Assembly (NCBI GenBank): GCA_002010065.2
Contig: MTMD02000008.1
Coordinates: 124,001 to 188,000, forward strand
Source of the DNA: Candidatus Pyrohabitans jungbluthii
Lineage (GTDB): Archaea > Hydrothermarchaeota > Hydrothermarchaeia > Hydrothermarchaeales > BMS3B
Direction: 5' to 3'
Length of the DNA: 64,000 nucleotides
Part shown: positions 47,980 to 55,607 of the stretch, piece by piece
Layout: each line of letters opens with the position of its first letter
Position numbering within the stretch: the stretch's first letter is position 1
The notes under the pieces: generated by a model
What the model was told of the DNA's origin: nothing
Database searches by the model: none
What the model saw: the letters and a program-made list of their open reading frames with translations, nothing else
Translations under genes and position numbers: made by a program

Positions 47980-48228
47980 CTAACCACCTGACACAGGAGG
48001 GAAGAAGGCAATCTCATCCTCGTCCTTAATTCCTTGCTCCGGCTGCGCCACTTCGTGATTCACAGAGACAAAATAATTTCTTCCCTCGAAGGCTTCGGTG
48101 AGCGCAGGAAAGCGCTGCTTCAGCGCCTCTATAACGTCGCTAACCTTTGCCCCTTCTTTAACCTCAAGCTCAACCTCTGCAACGCCAGCCTTCTCGCGGA
48201 ACCAGGCGAAGAGCTTCACCTTTACCAT
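47980..48228 (-). CDS. MoaD/ThiS-family small sulfur carrier, C-terminal Gly-Gly
   Basis: An 82-residue beta-grasp protein starting VKVKLFAWFREKAGVAEVELEV and ending FFPPVSGG, typical of MoaD. It would carry sulfur as a thiocarboxylate, for molybdopterin or tungstopterin synthesis or as an archaeal SAMP modifier. ATG 48228 is where the family begins; ATG 48237 is three codons upstream. The gene lies just after the Lhr helicase gene on the same strand. No MoaE is seen in this window. Confidence 0.85.
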   Translation of the reverse strand: MVKVKLFAWFREKAGVAEVELEVKEGAKVSDVIEALKQRFPALTEAFEGRNYFVSVNHEVAQPEQGIKDEDEIAFFPPVSGG

Positions 48229-48254
48229 CGCTTTCATAGCCCAGGTTAACGTTG

Positions 48255-51044
48255 TCAATCCCAGTACATCCTCGTTCGAGCGTATTCGCGCTCAGCCTTT
48301 AAAATCTCCCGGTAGAGTTCCTCCTCGTTTAACGCCCTGCTGAGCACGCGCTTGGCTGTTTCAGGTCCAACTCCACGCCCTGCCTGTGCAATTATTGCGC
48401 TCTTCCCGTAGGAAAGGAAGAGGTTCGCCGACAGCTGGAGCTTTTTTATCTCCTGCTTTTCCTCTTTGCTGAGCTTCTTCCCCTGCTTATAACTCCTGTA
48501 AAGACTACGCAGCCTTCTCGCATCTCCCTTGAGCACCGCTAACATGCGCGCCTGGCAGTGCTCACAGCGCAGGTCTTTTGGCAGCGAATTTATCTTGAAG
48601 CTCGCATGCCACGAGGCGCAGTAAAGGCAGAAGAGCTCAACCCTGCGCTCCCCTATGCGCCGCTTAAGCGCCTTAAGAATGAGCCTCTCGGCTCGCTCAG
48701 GCAGAACCACCTCGCCATAGCTGCGCAGCCCCATCTCGGCTATTGGCGAGGGCTCATCGCGACGCAGCACCTCCACCTCCAGCTTACCCTCGCGTACCCT
48801 GCGAATCACATCACACGCGCGCGGTATGTCCAGGTTGTCCTTGAATATCTCTTTCAGCGTCTCCCGGTGTATGAGCGAGCCCTCATACGCGCGTATCACT
48901 CTGCGAATGCCCGCACTGGTGTAGGTGTAGTCTTTCGCTATCGCCCCGAAGCGCTTGGCAACGTGCACAAACTTCCACTTGAAAAGAGAGGTTCTCTTCA
49001 AGCTCGTAGCGAGCAAGGGCTCAATGTGGTCTGGCTCAACCTGAAATAGCGAATAAATATCCTCCTCGCCTAAACGAGTGCCGGACTGAAGTATAATCCT
49101 GTACGCATCGCTTTGGAGCGCAACGCTCTGTCCAAGCTTTGAGGTTAAAAGCAGGGAGAACACCCTGCCAAGGGTTTCGTTCACCTTCATGCCAAAGGGC
49201 GCGTGAATAATCGCCAGCCCTCCCAGAAGCTCCACATAAATCTTGCTCTTCCCGGGTACAGGTATGCCTTTGCGCAGGTGACGCTTGACCTTACTTACAG
49301 CCTGCTTTCTCGTGTAATCATCACAGGGGTAAGAAGCGAGAGCTTCCTCTGCCTTGCTTTTCGCCTTATCGCGGAGTTCTGCCACCTCTTGTGCTACTTC
49401 ATAGGGCACAGGTATCTCCTCACCCACCCAGCTTGGCACGGCACCAGTGACCTCGCTTATGGGCTCAACAAGTATCTGCTCGCCATCTATAGCGACCACA
49501 CGCCAAGGTGAACCTTTGAAGATTATCCTGCTCCCCGGCTCTGCATAGTTAACCACGAAAGCTTCGTCGAGCACGCCCACGTTTTCCCTAGTAACGAGAT
49601 TCTTGACGAAGTAACGCTTCTCATCGGGTATGGTCGAGAGGTTGTTGTAGTAGTACTGCCGCGAGTTTCGCGTTGCCCCGAAGCGCTCTTCTTCCACCCA
49701 GAGAAGGCGAAGTTCGGCGAGCAGCGAAAGCGCCTCCTCCAGCTCCTCCTCTGTGAGCTCCGCAAAGGCAAAGCTCCTGCGCAGCAGAGCAAGCGCCTCT
49801 CGCTTCTCCACCCGCTTCCGCTCCAGAGCCAAACCAACCAGCTGGTGGGCAAGCACATCATAGGGCTTAAGATGGGGCTCTATCTCCTCCAGAAGCTCCT
49901 CCTTAGCTCGCCTCGCTATGGCGAGCGCTTCAAGGGTATCATCGGCGTCGGTGGTTATAATAACACCCTTAGAAGCCAAGCCCAAGCGGTGTCCACTCCT
50001 TCCCACGCGCTGGATGATGCGCGAAACCTGGCGCGGAGACTTGTACTGGATTACCAGGTCCACACTCCCAATATCGATGCCCAGCTCCAGAGAAGAGGTG
50101 CAGATGAGCGCTTTGAGCGCGCCCTTCTTAAACTCCTCCTCCGTGGTGATTCGCACCTCCTGAGAAAGCGATGAGTGGTGTATACCGACGCTCTCGCCTA
50201 TAATCTTAAATCTCGAAGCGAGAATCTCCGCCATTTCGCGGGTGTTCACAAAGATCAGCGCATGCCTGTGCTGTGCTATAAGCTCGCGCATCCTGCGCAG
50301 CCTTGTGGCGGCGGCTATGCCAGTGAAGAGGCGCTCCGCTATTTTGCGGTCCTCGCTTTTTGGCTTCGGATACTCCACGCGAATGTCCATCTCCTTAGCG
50401 GTGCTCACCCTCACTATCTCCACAGGCGCATGGTTGCAGAGGAAGCGCGCCATTCTCTCGGGGGAACCCACAGTGGCACTTATACCTATGCGCTGAAAAT
50501 CGTATTGCGCAAGCTCGCGCAGACGCTCAAGGGCAACGCTGAGCTGCGCACCCCGCTTGTTCTCCGCGAGCTCATGCACCTCGTCCACCACAACGTAGCG
50601 CACATTTCTCAGATGCCTCCGCATCACCGGCGCGGGTAGAATCGCCTGAAGCGTCTCTGGCGTAGTTATGAGCATCTCCGGCGGAGCCAGCGCCTGCTTC
50701 CGACGCTGATACTGGGAGGTATCGCCGTGGCGAACTGCGATGCGTATCCCCAGCTTCTCTCCCCACCACTCTAAGCGGGAGAGCAGGTCTCGATTAAGGG
50801 CACGCAGGGGTGTGATGTACAGCAACGAGATGCCTTTGCTTTTCGCCTCTTCCTCAGCCAATTTACTGAAAAGAGGGAGCATAGCTGCTTCTGTCTTGCC
50901 GATGCCTGTGGGAGCTATGAGAAGCACATGTCTGCGGCTGAGAATAACTGGAATAGCCGCCTCCTGAATAGGGGTGGGCTTCTTAAAACCCGACTCGCTT
51001 AGCACATTGCGCACTCGCTGAGATAAAAGGGAGAAGGACTTCAT
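48255..51044 (-). CDS. lhr: Lhr-type large DEAD/DEAH-box helicase
   Basis: A 929-residue SF2 helicase of the archaeal Lhr group. Motif I is LLIAPTGIGKTEAAML, motif II DEVHEL, motif III SATVG, and domain-2 motifs include FVNTREMAE and IIQRVGRSGHR. The Lhr core winged-helix region follows. Residues about 820-850 hold a CLYC...CEHC zinc site in place of the long bacterial Lhr tail. Lhr proteins unwind DNA or RNA:DNA during repair or translation-linked processes. It is 3 bp from an upstream RuvC-like gene, so the pair probably works together. Confidence 0.92.
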   Translation of the reverse strand: MKSFSLLSQRVRNVLSESGFKKPTPIQEAAIPVILSRRHVLLIAPTGIGKTEAAMLPLFSKLAEEEAKSKGISLLYITPLRALNRDLLSRLEWWGEKLGIRIAVRHGDTSQYQRRKQALAPPEMLITTPETLQAILPAPVMRRHLRNVRYVVVDEVHELAENKRGAQLSVALERLRELAQYDFQRIGISATVGSPERMARFLCNHAPVEIVRVSTAKEMDIRVEYPKPKSEDRKIAERLFTGIAAATRLRRMRELIAQHRHALIFVNTREMAEILASRFKIIGESVGIHHSSLSQEVRITTEEEFKKGALKALICTSSLELGIDIGSVDLVIQYKSPRQVSRIIQRVGRSGHRLGLASKGVIITTDADDTLEALAIARRAKEELLEEIEPHLKPYDVLAHQLVGLALERKRVEKREALALLRRSFAFAELTEEELEEALSLLAELRLLWVEEERFGATRNSRQYYYNNLSTIPDEKRYFVKNLVTRENVGVLDEAFVVNYAEPGSRIIFKGSPWRVVAIDGEQILVEPISEVTGAVPSWVGEEIPVPYEVAQEVAELRDKAKSKAEEALASYPCDDYTRKQAVSKVKRHLRKGIPVPGKSKIYVELLGGLAIIHAPFGMKVNETLGRVFSLLLTSKLGQSVALQSDAYRIILQSGTRLGEEDIYSLFQVEPDHIEPLLATSLKRTSLFKWKFVHVAKRFGAIAKDYTYTSAGIRRVIRAYEGSLIHRETLKEIFKDNLDIPRACDVIRRVREGKLEVEVLRRDEPSPIAEMGLRSYGEVVLPERAERLILKALKRRIGERRVELFCLYCASWHASFKINSLPKDLRCEHCQARMLAVLKGDARRLRSLYRSYKQGKKLSKEEKQEIKKLQLSANLFLSYGKSAIIAQAGRGVGPETAKRVLSRALNEEELYREILKAEREYARTRMYWD

Positions 51045-51918: not shown

Positions 51919-52332
51919 ATGATACCCAAAGACGTGCTCAGGGCTTTTGATAATCTTTGCTACCCTGATAAACCCCTTGTGTGGGTGGCGACCTGCAGCG
52001 AAGACGAGCCCCACCTCGTACCCGTGTGCTTCGTAAAGGCGCTCAACGACGGCAGGCTGCTCATAGGCAACGTTTTTATAAAGCGGACAGAGCGCAACAT
52101 TGAGAGCAATCCTCGTGTTGCCGTGGGCGTAGCCTTCAAGCGCGAAGGCTGGGACGGCTACCTGCTCAAGGGCAGAGCAGAGGTTCTGAGAGAGGGTGAG
52201 TCCTTTGAAAGCTTCAAGCGTGAGGTGCTGGACAGGAGCGGCGGCAAACGAGAGTTAAGCTCTGCGCTTCTCGTAGACGTGGAGGAGGTTTATTCACTGG
52301 CGCCGAAAAAGGGGAAGAAAAGGGTGGTTTAG
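51919..52332 (+). CDS. Pyridoxamine 5'-phosphate oxidase-like FMN/F420-binding protein
   Basis: A 137-residue split-barrel protein with KPLVWVATCSEDEPHLVPVCF, GRLLIGNVFIKRTERNIESNP and VAVGVAFKREGWDGYLLKGRAEV, the usual PNPOx-like order. Such proteins bind FMN or F420; the substrate is unknown. No ribosome site precedes the ATG, and a TTTAA-rich sequence about 25-30 bp upstream suggests a leaderless message. It is convergent with the CoM operon by 4 bp. Confidence 0.82.
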   Translation: MIPKDVLRAFDNLCYPDKPLVWVATCSEDEPHLVPVCFVKALNDGRLLIGNVFIKRTERNIESNPRVAVGVAFKREGWDGYLLKGRAEVLREGESFESFKREVLDRSGGKRELSSALLVDVEEVYSLAPKKGKKRVV

Positions 52333-53240
52333 AGCCTCAGCTTCTCGCTGTAGTGGTGCCCCTCCGGGTGCACCTCCTCAATAATCTCGCAATAGAATAT
52401 GTCCTTCTCGGTAAGGGGCTTCGAGAGGTAGCCCAAGTCGAGCATCACAGGCACAAAACGCATTGTAGCTTTGATGTACTCCCGGGGTAAAGCCGCGCAG
52501 TACCGCGGAGATAGTTTCATCGCCGCGAGTGCGAAATCGCTGTCCACGAAGCCAAGTACTGAGGCCGCTACCTCAGCCGCTTTTCTCGGGCGGTTGATTA
52601 TGAGGTTGCTCGCCTCTTCGTGCACCTCAAGGAACACGCGCAGCGCCTTCGAGTCGAGAAAGTCTTCGCGCGCAATTATCCCGTAGCTGGGATTGAAGGG
52701 CCAGAGCCTCGCCGGCGGGAGGGCAATTCTAGCGCCCAGCTCGCGCTCAAGCAGTGCCGCGAGAGCAGGCGTGCCGATGGCTGCAGCTATTTCCTCAGCC
52801 TCCATCGCGAGGGGTATGAAGTCCGCCCACGGGTAGTTTATAACCTCGGTCTCTATGCTGTGCTCCCTGAGAAGGTGGCGCAGGATAATGTCATGGATTG
52901 AGCCTCTCGGGGGGGAGCCTATGCGCTTGCCCTCAAGCGAAGTAACGATATCCTCAACACTCTGCCCATCAACGCCTTTAGCTGTGCACAGGGCTGTGCC
53001 CTCCACGTGTCCCCCGGCAACGCATTTTATCTCTGCCCCCTGCGCTATGCCTATCATCACAGGGGGTAGGCCAATATAGCCAATGTCCACCTCGCCCCGC
53101 TCCAGCGCATCTACGATGGCAGGGCCGCCTCCGAAGAGTTTCCAGCTTGCGCTTACTCCTCGACTCTCAAGCATGCGCAGCCCGCGAATGATTAAGGCGG
53201 TATGGTAGACCGTAGAGAGGTGTCCAACTCTAATCCTCAT
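52329..53240 (-). CDS. NMT1/SsuA-like substrate-binding-fold protein without signal peptide, in the CoM operon
   Basis: The 303-residue product has the periplasmic-binding-protein fold of the NMT1/THI5/SsuA group: RVGHLSTVYHTALIIRGLRM, FGGGPAIVDALERGEVDIGYIGLPPVMIGIAQGA, and IGSPPRGSIHDIILRHLL. It begins directly with the first strand, with no signal peptide or lipobox, so it is cytoplasmic. It overlaps comDE by 11 bp. Relatives bind alkanesulfonates, and the operon makes sulfonate intermediates, so a carrier or enzymatic role in CoM synthesis is an inference worth testing. Cysteines and a His-rich tail (HPEGHHYSEKL) are notable. Confidence 0.75.
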   Translation of the reverse strand: MRIRVGHLSTVYHTALIIRGLRMLESRGVSASWKLFGGGPAIVDALERGEVDIGYIGLPPVMIGIAQGAEIKCVAGGHVEGTALCTAKGVDGQSVEDIVTSLEGKRIGSPPRGSIHDIILRHLLREHSIETEVINYPWADFIPLAMEAEEIAAAIGTPALAALLERELGARIALPPARLWPFNPSYGIIAREDFLDSKALRVFLEVHEEASNLIINRPRKAAEVAASVLGFVDSDFALAAMKLSPRYCAALPREYIKATMRFVPVMLDLGYLSKPLTEKDIFYCEIIEEVHPEGHHYSEKLRL

Positions 53241-54354
53241 CTCTCAGAAACCCCATCACATTTGCTTTGATATCCTCGGGCGATAGGGGGATGTTACTCA
53301 CGCGAGCGTTGCCAGGTTTTGTTACCACGTGCACAAAGCGCGGCGCATCGCCTCGGTGCATGGCTTCGACTACCTCTTCAGGCGTAGAGGCGCGGGAGGC
53401 ATTTTCTATGCCCATCGCCCTTGCAAGCATCGCCAGGTCGGCGCTTCGCATCGTCGCGGTTGGCTGGTTGCCTGTGCTGCCGTAGGCAGCGTTGTCCATT
53501 GCTAAGATGGTTAAATTCCGCGGCGCCATCTCAGACACCGTTGCTAGGCATCCTGCGTTCATGAGCAGGCTCCCGTCGCCATCTATAACCACAACCTCCT
53601 TTCGCGTACCCAGAGCTATGCCAAGCCCAATGGATGTCGCCATGCCCATACTACCAAGCATGTAGAAGTTTGAGCGCTGGTGGAGCACGTGGTACAGCTC
53701 CTTGCTGGGCACGCCCAAGTTGCTCACCACCACCTTACCGCGGAGCTCCTCTCTTATACCGGCGAGAATCTCAAAGCGCGTGTGCTTCGCGGTAGCTTCT
53801 TTGCCCTCAAAGCTTCTCCTAGCTACAGTTCTGTCTTCACCCTCCCAGCGAGGCATCTCAAAGTCGCTGCCCTCCCATACCTTAGGGCTGAGCAGCGCCG
53901 CAGCAATGCGACTCTCCTCGAAGGCGATGGAGGCAGCCTCAGCTATTTTTGGTATGTCCTCCCTCTCCTGAACCTCAACAAAATCTATCTCCAGCGCTTT
54001 AAGCAGCCTGGGTACAAACATACCCATTGGCTTCTGGGCCACTATAGCCTCTTTGTAAACCCCCCGCCAGCTTATCAAGATAAAAAGGGGAAGCTCATAC
54101 AGCTTGGTGAGCGATGCTAGGGCATTGATCATGTTCCCTATGCCGGAGGTTTGCACCAGCATCACGGGCTTCTCCCCGGCGAGCGCAGCGCCTGCGGCTA
54201 TGCCTACACCTTCTTCCTCACGGGTAAGAGGTACATGCCTGAATTCTCTGGCAATGAGATAATGCAGCGCTTTAACCTTATCACAGGGCAGCGTCAAAGC
54301 GAGGCTTGCACCAGTGTCTTTTAAAAGCGCGACCACATCTTCCTCTGGACTCAT
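53230..54354 (-). CDS. comDE: Sulfopyruvate decarboxylase, fused ComD-ComE
   Basis: This thiamine-diphosphate enzyme decarboxylates sulfopyruvate to sulfoacetaldehyde in coenzyme M synthesis. The N-terminal ComD half (residues 1-165) has LTREEEGVGIAAGAALAGEKP with the catalytic Glu. The C-terminal ComE half (about 190-374) has the ThDP motif GDGSLLMNAGCLA and MDNAAYGSTGNQPT. Fused ComDE next to cysteate synthase is the arrangement known in Methanosarcina. The ATG overlaps the cysteate synthase stop as ATGA. Confidence 0.9.
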   Translation of the reverse strand: MSPEEDVVALLKDTGASLALTLPCDKVKALHYLIAREFRHVPLTREEEGVGIAAGAALAGEKPVMLVQTSGIGNMINALASLTKLYELPLFILISWRGVYKEAIVAQKPMGMFVPRLLKALEIDFVEVQEREDIPKIAEAASIAFEESRIAAALLSPKVWEGSDFEMPRWEGEDRTVARRSFEGKEATAKHTRFEILAGIREELRGKVVVSNLGVPSKELYHVLHQRSNFYMLGSMGMATSIGLGIALGTRKEVVVIDGDGSLLMNAGCLATVSEMAPRNLTILAMDNAAYGSTGNQPTATMRSADLAMLARAMGIENASRASTPEEVVEAMHRGDAPRFVHVVTKPGNARVSNIPLSPEDIKANVMGFLRDED

Positions 54355-55607
54355 AGCTCAAGCTCCTTAAGTTCGCGATCGCTCGCATTTTTGCTGAGAG
54401 TATAGTCTTCCTTTAATCTGTGAAGCTTTTTATCCTTTCGCAGCCTTGCGCTTCCGCCGCCGGTAATGTTGAGTAGCACCCTCTCGTGCCTACGAATGCT
54501 TCCATTTTCAACTGCCTGCAAAAGTGCTGCCACTGCCACGCTGGCAGCAGGGAGAATATCTATCCCCTCCAGCCTTGCAAAAAGTGCCTTGGCGCGCTTT
54601 GCCTCGCTGTTCTTAACCCCGTACATCTCTCCCCGCGTGGCCACAAGCGCGTCGTAAACCCCACCTGCTATGCCATAGGGAGGGTAGCGGTTTGAGAGCA
54701 CCCGCGCGTAGATCAGGTCGAGCACATTCTCAGCCTGCGGAATGTCCTCCTCAGGCACAATCTCCCGCCTGCCGGCACGCCATGCGCTGTACATAGGTGC
54801 AACAGGGAGATTCTGGGCCAGGTGAAGCCTGGGCAAAGCTTTACCAAAGCGGCCATCCTCGCGAAGGCGGAGCGCCGCCTCGTAAGTTGCTATCGCACCC
54901 GTACCGCTTCCCACCGCTTGGAAGTAGTGCTGTGGCATGCACCCCATTTCAAACACTGCATCGAGCAGAACTGTAGCCAAGCCATCTCTGCGAGCTATAT
55001 TCCTAGCACCACCCTCATAGGTAAAGCCCTTTATTCTGGAAAGTCGCTGGGCTATTGCGATGCTGTCCGAGTAGTCGCCGTCGGTAATCATGACCGTCTT
55101 CACATACCTCCTGTCATAGCGTGGAAGAAAAACTCCGCACAGGCATTTCCTAGGCACGAGGAGTACCACCGGGAAGCGCTCCTGCGAGGCTGCAGCTGCG
55201 AAGGCTTTTGCGGTATTGCCTGCAGAGGCTACGACCAGCTTGGTGACACCGTTCTCCTGTGCATAGCGTATAGTTACCGCAGCTTCAAGCTCCTTGAATG
55301 TGCAGGTCTCCATGCTTACCCCTCGCTCTGGCCAGTAGCCGTTGAAGGTGATGTAGAGGTTTTTAAGCCCAAGTTCTTCCGCTAGACCCTCGCTTTTATA
55401 GGTTACCGGTTTCTCGCTGTAGCTTGAAGGCTCGTTTACAGGCAGCCAGTCGATGAAGCGCCATATCCCGGGGAGGTCCCTGAGAGTCAACTTTTTCTCT
55501 GGATAGATGCTTCTTGTTAATCCTTTGTGGTTAGGGCAGACGAAATTAAATGAAACATTCTTCCTAACCTCTCCCCCTTCGAGGCAAAGCAGATGAAACT
55601 TCTCCAT
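54351..55607 (-). CDS. Cysteate synthase (threonine-synthase-like PLP enzyme)
   Basis: A 418-residue fold-type II PLP enzyme. The N-terminal region has a CPNH-type segment and RFIDWLPVNEPSSYSEKPVTYKSEGL. A conserved VSMETCTFKELEA segment would hold the PLP Lys in TFKELE, followed by VASAGNTAKAFAAAASQ. Relatives in Methanosarcina convert O-phosphoserine and sulfite to cysteate, the start of the phosphoenolpyruvate-independent CoM route. Adjacency to ComDE supports cysteate rather than threonine synthase. GAGGTATC precedes ATG 55607. Confidence 0.85.
   Translation of the reverse strand: MEKFHLLCLEGGEVRKNVSFNFVCPNHKGLTRSIYPEKKLTLRDLPGIWRFIDWLPVNEPSSYSEKPVTYKSEGLAEELGLKNLYITFNGYWPERGVSMETCTFKELEAAVTIRYAQENGVTKLVVASAGNTAKAFAAAASQERFPVVLLVPRKCLCGVFLPRYDRRYVKTVMITDGDYSDSIAIAQRLSRIKGFTYEGGARNIARRDGLATVLLDAVFEMGCMPQHYFQAVGSGTGAIATYEAALRLREDGRFGKALPRLHLAQNLPVAPMYSAWRAGRREIVPEEDIPQAENVLDLIYARVLSNRYPPYGIAGGVYDALVATRGEMYGVKNSEAKRAKALFARLEGIDILPAASVAVAALLQAVENGSIRRHERVLLNITGGGSARLRKDKKLHRLKEDYTLSKNASDRELKELEL

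Follow-up and report, generated by a model that had tools for sequence, protein, structure and literature searches.

A cytoplasmic SsuA-like protein encoded beside ComDE is a candidate coenzyme M synthase in prokaryotes without MMP16

Introduction

How could sulfoacetaldehyde be turned into coenzyme M (CoM) in an archaeon that encodes the enzymes producing this aldehyde but no COG1900 protein? The question is raised by a three-gene operon of Candidatus Pyrohabitans jungbluthii (Hydrothermarchaeota; assembly GCA_002010065.2), found in a 64,000-nucleotide stretch of contig MTMD02000008.1 (positions 124,001 to 188,000, forward strand) that we call the window and whose numbering we use. An earlier sequence-only reading of the window proposed the third operon product, a cytoplasmic SsuA/NMT1-like protein of 303 amino acids (aa) here named P1, as a candidate for the step from sulfoacetaldehyde to CoM or for channelling. 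Our results support that candidacy, through co-occurrence of P1 with ComDE and cysteate synthase, above all in genomes without MMP16. P1 very probably belongs to CoM biosynthesis. We lean, with much less assurance, towards P1 being a non-orthologous CoM synthase, or the substrate-binding core of one, that acts on sulfoacetaldehyde in organisms lacking MMP16/ComF.

CoM has long been tied to methane, alkane and alkene metabolism. The step in question, which the sequence-only reading called the least understood of the pathway, is less obscure than that: work from 2025 established that in Methanosarcina acetivorans the primary CoM synthase is MMP16 (PMC12068725).

The operon and its host genome

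Three open reading frames lie on the minus strand at 52329-55607, listed here from first to third gene:

54351..55607, minus strand: cysteate synthase, first operon gene (418 aa; TIGR03844)
53230..54354, minus strand: ComDE, fused sulfopyruvate decarboxylase, alpha plus beta (374 aa; TIGR03845, TIGR03846)
52329..53240, minus strand: P1, SsuA/NMT1-like protein, candidate CoM synthase (303 aa; PF13379 and PF09084 matches)

The overlaps described earlier are present: 4 bp between the genes for cysteate synthase (cs) and ComDE (54351-54354), and 11 bp between those for ComDE and P1 (53230-53240). Cysteate synthase scores 548 bits with TIGR03844, for which the cut-off is 325. The fused ComDE scores 191 bits with TIGR03845 and 224 bits with TIGR03846, each above its curated cut-off, and falls short of classification as a phosphonopyruvate decarboxylase (Ppyr-DeCO2ase model, 215 bits against a cut-off of 312.5). 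P1 matches substrate-binding protein (SBP) families only (PF13379, 66 bits; PF09084, 39 bits) and stays below the curated cut-off of the SsuA model TIGR01728 (93.4 versus 163.5 bits). The gene order cs-comDE-P1 recurs in other hydrothermarchaeotes and in Archaeoglobales, so the arrangement is not due to chance.

P1 begins at its first beta strand (MRIRVGHLST), with no leader. At 44 surveyed related loci nearly all homologues share this start point, which in many of them is immediately preceded by a stop codon, and we therefore regard P1 as cytoplasmic as a family. The window operon contains no permease or ATPase gene. The earlier claim that the third protein lacks a signal peptide holds, and its conclusion that the protein is not a transporter component is very probably right.

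The host genome (1.99 Mb, 99.95% complete) has Candidatus Pyrohabitans JdFR-17 and other Hydrothermarchaeota as its nearest named relatives. A genome search found no methyl-coenzyme M reductase (MCR), consistent with what has been published on the phylum (PMC6775978). Whether COG1900-type genes occur elsewhere in the genome, a check suggested by the sequence-only reading, was examined using TIGR03287 and PF01837. No MMP16/ComF was found with the former, its 13 matches being rejected because they cover only model positions 274-359, the ferredoxin-type region; no COG1900 protein of any kind was found with the latter. Despite lacking MCR, MMP16 and COG1900, the genome keeps an intact operon for making sulfoacetaldehyde with P1 as its third gene. 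The original description of a CoM operon needs a qualification: with no MCR, any CoM made here would serve something other than methane.

Co-occurrence with the CoM pathway

Of 23 Hydrothermarchaeota genomes, 8 encode P1; exactly these eight also encode cysteate synthase (p = 2e-6), and COG1900 is absent from all of them. Outside the genus, the cs-comDE-P1 operon is found in G010 and G015, and in G014 the P1 gene adjoins cs and comDE but is divergently oriented.

For a larger sample, we screened 392 Halobacteriota genomes of at least 90% completeness with a profile of P1 and for MMP16 and ComE, and cross-tabulated the results. Two matches, in G231 and a second one at locus L068, were rejected as P1 because they are transporter-linked SsuA proteins; G231 was excluded from the counts, and both served as outgroup. 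ComE was found in 203 genomes, 172 with full-length MMP16 and 31 without it. P1 is present in 28 of the latter (90%) versus 25 of the former (15%), giving an odds ratio of 55 (Fisher p = 1.4e-16, uncorrected for relatedness), and either MMP16 or P1 was found in 200 of the 203.

The MMP16-free archaeal carriers, as judged from the P1 clade and gene maps, are Hydrothermarchaeota, Archaeoglobales, Methanoregulaceae, anaerobic methanotrophic archaea of the ANME-2 group, Methanocella paludicola together with G312, G338 and G377, and G081; bacterial groups are also included. Genomes G312, G338 and G377 encode MCR, ComE and P1 and have no COG1900 match; as MCR bearers they need CoM. Methanocella paludicola (G066) likewise has MCR, ComE and P1 and no MMP16. 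It grows when L-glutamate replaces yeast extract (PMC3146512), and so it probably makes its own CoM. Geoglobus ahangari (G084) has cs-comDE-P1 but no MCR. We found no paper on the CoM content of Geoglobus or on a CoM requirement in Methanoregula.

The bacterial set consists of 11 genomes found solely through P1 and then searched for ComE, which was present in nine. In seven genomes, from Thermodesulfobacteriota and related bacteria (L112-L114, L117-L120), it lies in a comA-comB-comD-comE cluster; in two Nitrospirota (L115-L116) it lies in cs-comDE; P1 is encoded elsewhere in these genomes. Profiles were checked for one comABDE cluster: ComA scores 294 bits (cut-off 280), ComD and ComE pass, and ComB matches its Pfam family. 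Genes flanking the bacterial clusters look bacterial by eye. Since both comABDE and cs-comDE accompany P1, P1 follows sulfoacetaldehyde synthesis by either upstream route. Homologues lying mostly outside CoM-making genomes, the outcome that the sequence-only reading named as fatal to its proposal, is the opposite of what was found in Hydrothermarchaeota, Halobacteriota and bacteria.

The Nitrospirota cs-comDE at L115 is flanked by genes for an HdrD/TfrB-like CCG protein, a DsrM-like cytochrome b and DUF6951. The first two neighbours suggest use of a thiol/disulfide.

Gene neighbourhoods

Of the 28 MMP16-free genomes with P1, 18 encode it no more than about 6 kb from comDE, against none of 24 genomes with MMP16 (p = 5e-7). 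Layouts among the former include cs-comDE-P1 in Archaeoglobales, P1-cs-comDE in an ANME-2-like genome and, in Methanoregula, P1 divergent from an ATPase-GTPase-FeS-cs-comDE cluster. In genomes that have MMP16, it is MMP16 that adjoins comE in the many cases where both coordinates are listed. Genes for FeS, GTPase and ATPase proteins are an alternative neighbourhood of P1 in those genomes; such genes have been noted beside CoM genes (PMC12068725).

The P1 protein

All 81 homologues compared, which come from both archaea and bacteria, form one clade apart from transporter-linked SsuA. Six residues with acidic or imidazole side chains are invariant among them (H13, H78, E80, H116, D117, H207), as are L8, T10, W33, G39, Y55, G57, P60, G76-G77, G81, N135, G156-T157-P158, N183-P184, G187-I188, S244 and F282. 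The SBP fold and the secondary structure prediction would place most of them in loops or helix starts lining the cleft. No lysine is found among the invariant or near-invariant residues of the 81 homologues, and the P1 sequence has no cysteine cluster. Cys73 was considered as an essential persulfide carrier, which is unlikely because one homologue has serine there.

An AlphaFold2 model of P1 has a mean pLDDT of 94.9, and the solved folds closest to it are SsuA with MOPS or MES, TauA, and then Thi5. The best sequence match in the PDB is a zinc-bound Staphylococcus aureus ABC substrate-binding protein (3un6, 52 bits), with histidines that align with H13, H78 and H116 in a profile alignment; our proposal of a metal site in P1 stems from this. 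3un6 differs from P1 in being annotated as an ABC import component, in having alanine at the position of C73 and in giving no match beyond about residue 229 of the profile.

Comparison with known systems

MMP16/ComF (TIGR03287; COG1900 plus a ferredoxin domain) acts at the step proposed for P1. It too adjoins comDE where present and tracks genomes that make sulfoacetaldehyde, and the occurrence of the two is largely complementary. The two are unrelated in sequence: the fold of P1 is that of SsuA, and P1 has neither COG1900 nor ferredoxin domain and gives no full-length TIGR03287/COG1900 match. What P1 shares is the genomic signature of ComF/MMP16, occurrence with sulfoacetaldehyde genes and clustering with comDE, the latter in the 18 linked genomes given above.

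SsuA and TauA (3ksx, 2x26, 6ssy) resemble the predicted P1 model in fold, placing P1 nearest the sulfonate binders (template modelling score about 0.75-0.80), and share the GSxxH helix start that includes H116. P1 differs from them in its lack of both the leader and the adjacent permease and ATPase genes of SsuA, in its score under the SsuA_fam cut-off and in the family-specific H13, C73, GGHxEGT, WAD and NPSYG.

Thi5/NMT1, the hydroxymethylpyrimidine phosphate synthase, is a precedent for a cytoplasmic enzyme of this fold and is among the best fold matches to P1, at about 15-17% identity and with another proposed substrate and chemistry. Its marks are a lysine that binds pyridoxal phosphate and a C-terminal cysteine cluster, and P1 has neither. 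MqnA, MqnD and DszB are further SBP-fold enzymes.

Proposed mechanism

In the pathway that we propose, cysteate synthase would form cysteate from O-phosphoserine and sulfite, an aminotransferase would convert cysteate to sulfopyruvate, and ComDE would decarboxylate sulfopyruvate to the sulfoacetaldehyde that P1 then takes over. The cleft of P1 may hold the sulfonate end of the aldehyde, as SsuA holds its ligands, while a metal on H13, H78 and H116 could polarise the aldehyde or hold the incoming sulfur. The sulfur donor may be sulfide or protein-bound sulfur, with a ThiS-like carrier in some genomes, and a separate partner would supply the two electrons.

P1 is thus proposed as a new enzyme family for a known step, on a fold already known to give cytoplasmic enzymes. 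If this is true, P1 accounts for the synthesis of an essential cofactor in Methanoregula, Methanocella paludicola, ANME-2 and archaea like them that have no MMP16, points to CoM in archaea that metabolise sulfur and iron as well as in bacteria carrying the archaeal-type pathway, and is a further case of a transporter binding protein turned cytoplasmic enzyme. We put at about even the chances of a broader proposition with two parts: that P1 represents a second family of CoM synthases, independent of COG1900, which is built on an SsuA fold, has a proposed metal site of histidines and extends over at least four groups of archaea and two phyla of bacteria; and that many organisms lacking MCR (Hydrothermarchaeota, Archaeoglobales, Thermodesulfobacteriota, Nitrospirota) make CoM by the archaeal-type pathway, so that CoM would have a role outside methanogenesis.

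Evidence against, and alternative explanations

Several observations weigh against P1 as a CoM synthase. Membership in the pathway is strongly supported; the catalytic step is inferred, and the activity, ligand and metal of P1 are proposals. The step uses up electrons, yet P1 contains neither an Fe-S domain nor any other redox domain, which is why a separate electron source is proposed. The co-occurrence counts are uncorrected for shared ancestry and stand for about eight lineages. There are genomes with the pathway and neither protein (three comE-bearing Halobacteriota without MMP16: G111, G318, G341), genomes with both (25 Halobacteriota carry MMP16 and P1), and P1 carriers with no ComE match (five Halobacteriota and two bacteria, G038 and G040, where P1 adjoins an E1-like gene). 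Most MMP16-free Halobacteriota retain an L-ASST-type COG1900 protein, a possible source of CoM (PMC12068725). Finally, P1 in MMP16-bearing genomes often adjoins genes for E1, ThiS-like protein, sulfite reductase and CysH instead of comDE, a setting that suggests wider involvement in sulfur metabolism. We considered that P1 might act generally in cysteine synthesis, together with E1, ThiS and sulfite reductase, and demoted this idea after the ComE co-occurrence counts, bacteria included.

The main alternative is sulfite handling: P1 would bind sulfite or deliver it to cysteate synthase or ComA, or free it from a sulfinate like DszB, an SBP-fold desulfinase. Sulfite is consumed by both the cysteate synthase and the ComA routes, so P1 would track either; sulfite reductase and CysH, a sulfite producer, are among its frequent neighbours where MMP16 is present; and its fold relatives bind sulfonates, which resemble sulfite. 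We nevertheless consider this unlikely, as it leaves unexplained both the near-constancy of P1 where MMP16 is absent and the linkage to comDE solely there, and leaves the last step unfilled in genomes without COG1900. Moreover, the 50 best fold matches include no structure of DszB.

P1 might instead be a non-catalytic partner that binds sulfoacetaldehyde or CoM, channelling or protecting the aldehyde or handing it to another CoM synthase. SsuA-like proteins are normally binders, the motif residues of P1 are invariant, and Fe-S, GTPase and ATPase proteins adjoin P1 in Methanoregula and others (PMC12068725 Fig. 2). Yet the operons of hydrothermarchaea and Archaeoglobales contain cs, comDE and P1 alone, the gene-map survey found no further companion of P1 constant across all lineages, and four invariant histidines with a glutamate and an aspartate resemble an active site more than a site for binding only. 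We find this partnership quite improbable.

Another sulfonate such as taurine or isethionate could be the end product in MCR-less organisms, with P1 as terminal enzyme there and in a related role in MCR bearers. No use of methyl-CoM is known for the host genome, the operon-bearing Archaeoglobales or the bacteria (PMC4600277). This is very unlikely, given that the invariant residues are identical in MMP16-less methanogens and ANME that must make CoM and that the neighbours of the Nitrospirota cs-comDE point to thiol/disulfide use. That P1 is an ordinary transporter binding protein, as automatic annotation would label it, or an unrelated neighbour is hardly credible for a leaderless family whose operon has no permease or ATPase gene and whose co-occurrence with cysteate synthase in the phylum is exact.

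Further observations

Two other genes of the window lie near the operon. One, for a PNPOx-type protein (51919-52332), is convergent with P1 and overlaps it by 4 bp, a pairing kept in L001-L004 only. The other, for a ThiS-like sulfur carrier (47980-48258), is on the same strand about 4 kb downstream; it was considered as the sulfur donor of P1, which it possibly is, but other genes intervene and it may be ordinary MoaD.

A radical SAM protein related to the MSMEG_0568 family recurs near P1 (L063:2283-3317, L083:7180-8049, L036:2801-3808) and may be a partner. In Geoglobus its gene lies upstream of cs-comDE-P1, in L036-L038 it is close to LarE and P1, and in L083 and L086 it directly precedes P1. 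These last two loci belong to a group of three genomes (G100, G125, G159; L083, L084, L086) that have MCR and P1 but no ComE match and no full-length MMP16.

In G177 (L068:7390-9934) cs-comDE-P1 is followed at once by genes for a leader-bearing SsuA-like protein, a permease and an ATPase, placing both kinds of binding protein side by side. On a Methanothrix contig (L021:42-2927) P1 directly follows a gene for a nitrogenase-like protein, identified by eye. The CoM operon has a DUF6951 gene in its vicinity in a hydrothermarchaeote (L020:6324-6635) and likewise in a Nitrospirota bacterium (L115:6272-6586).

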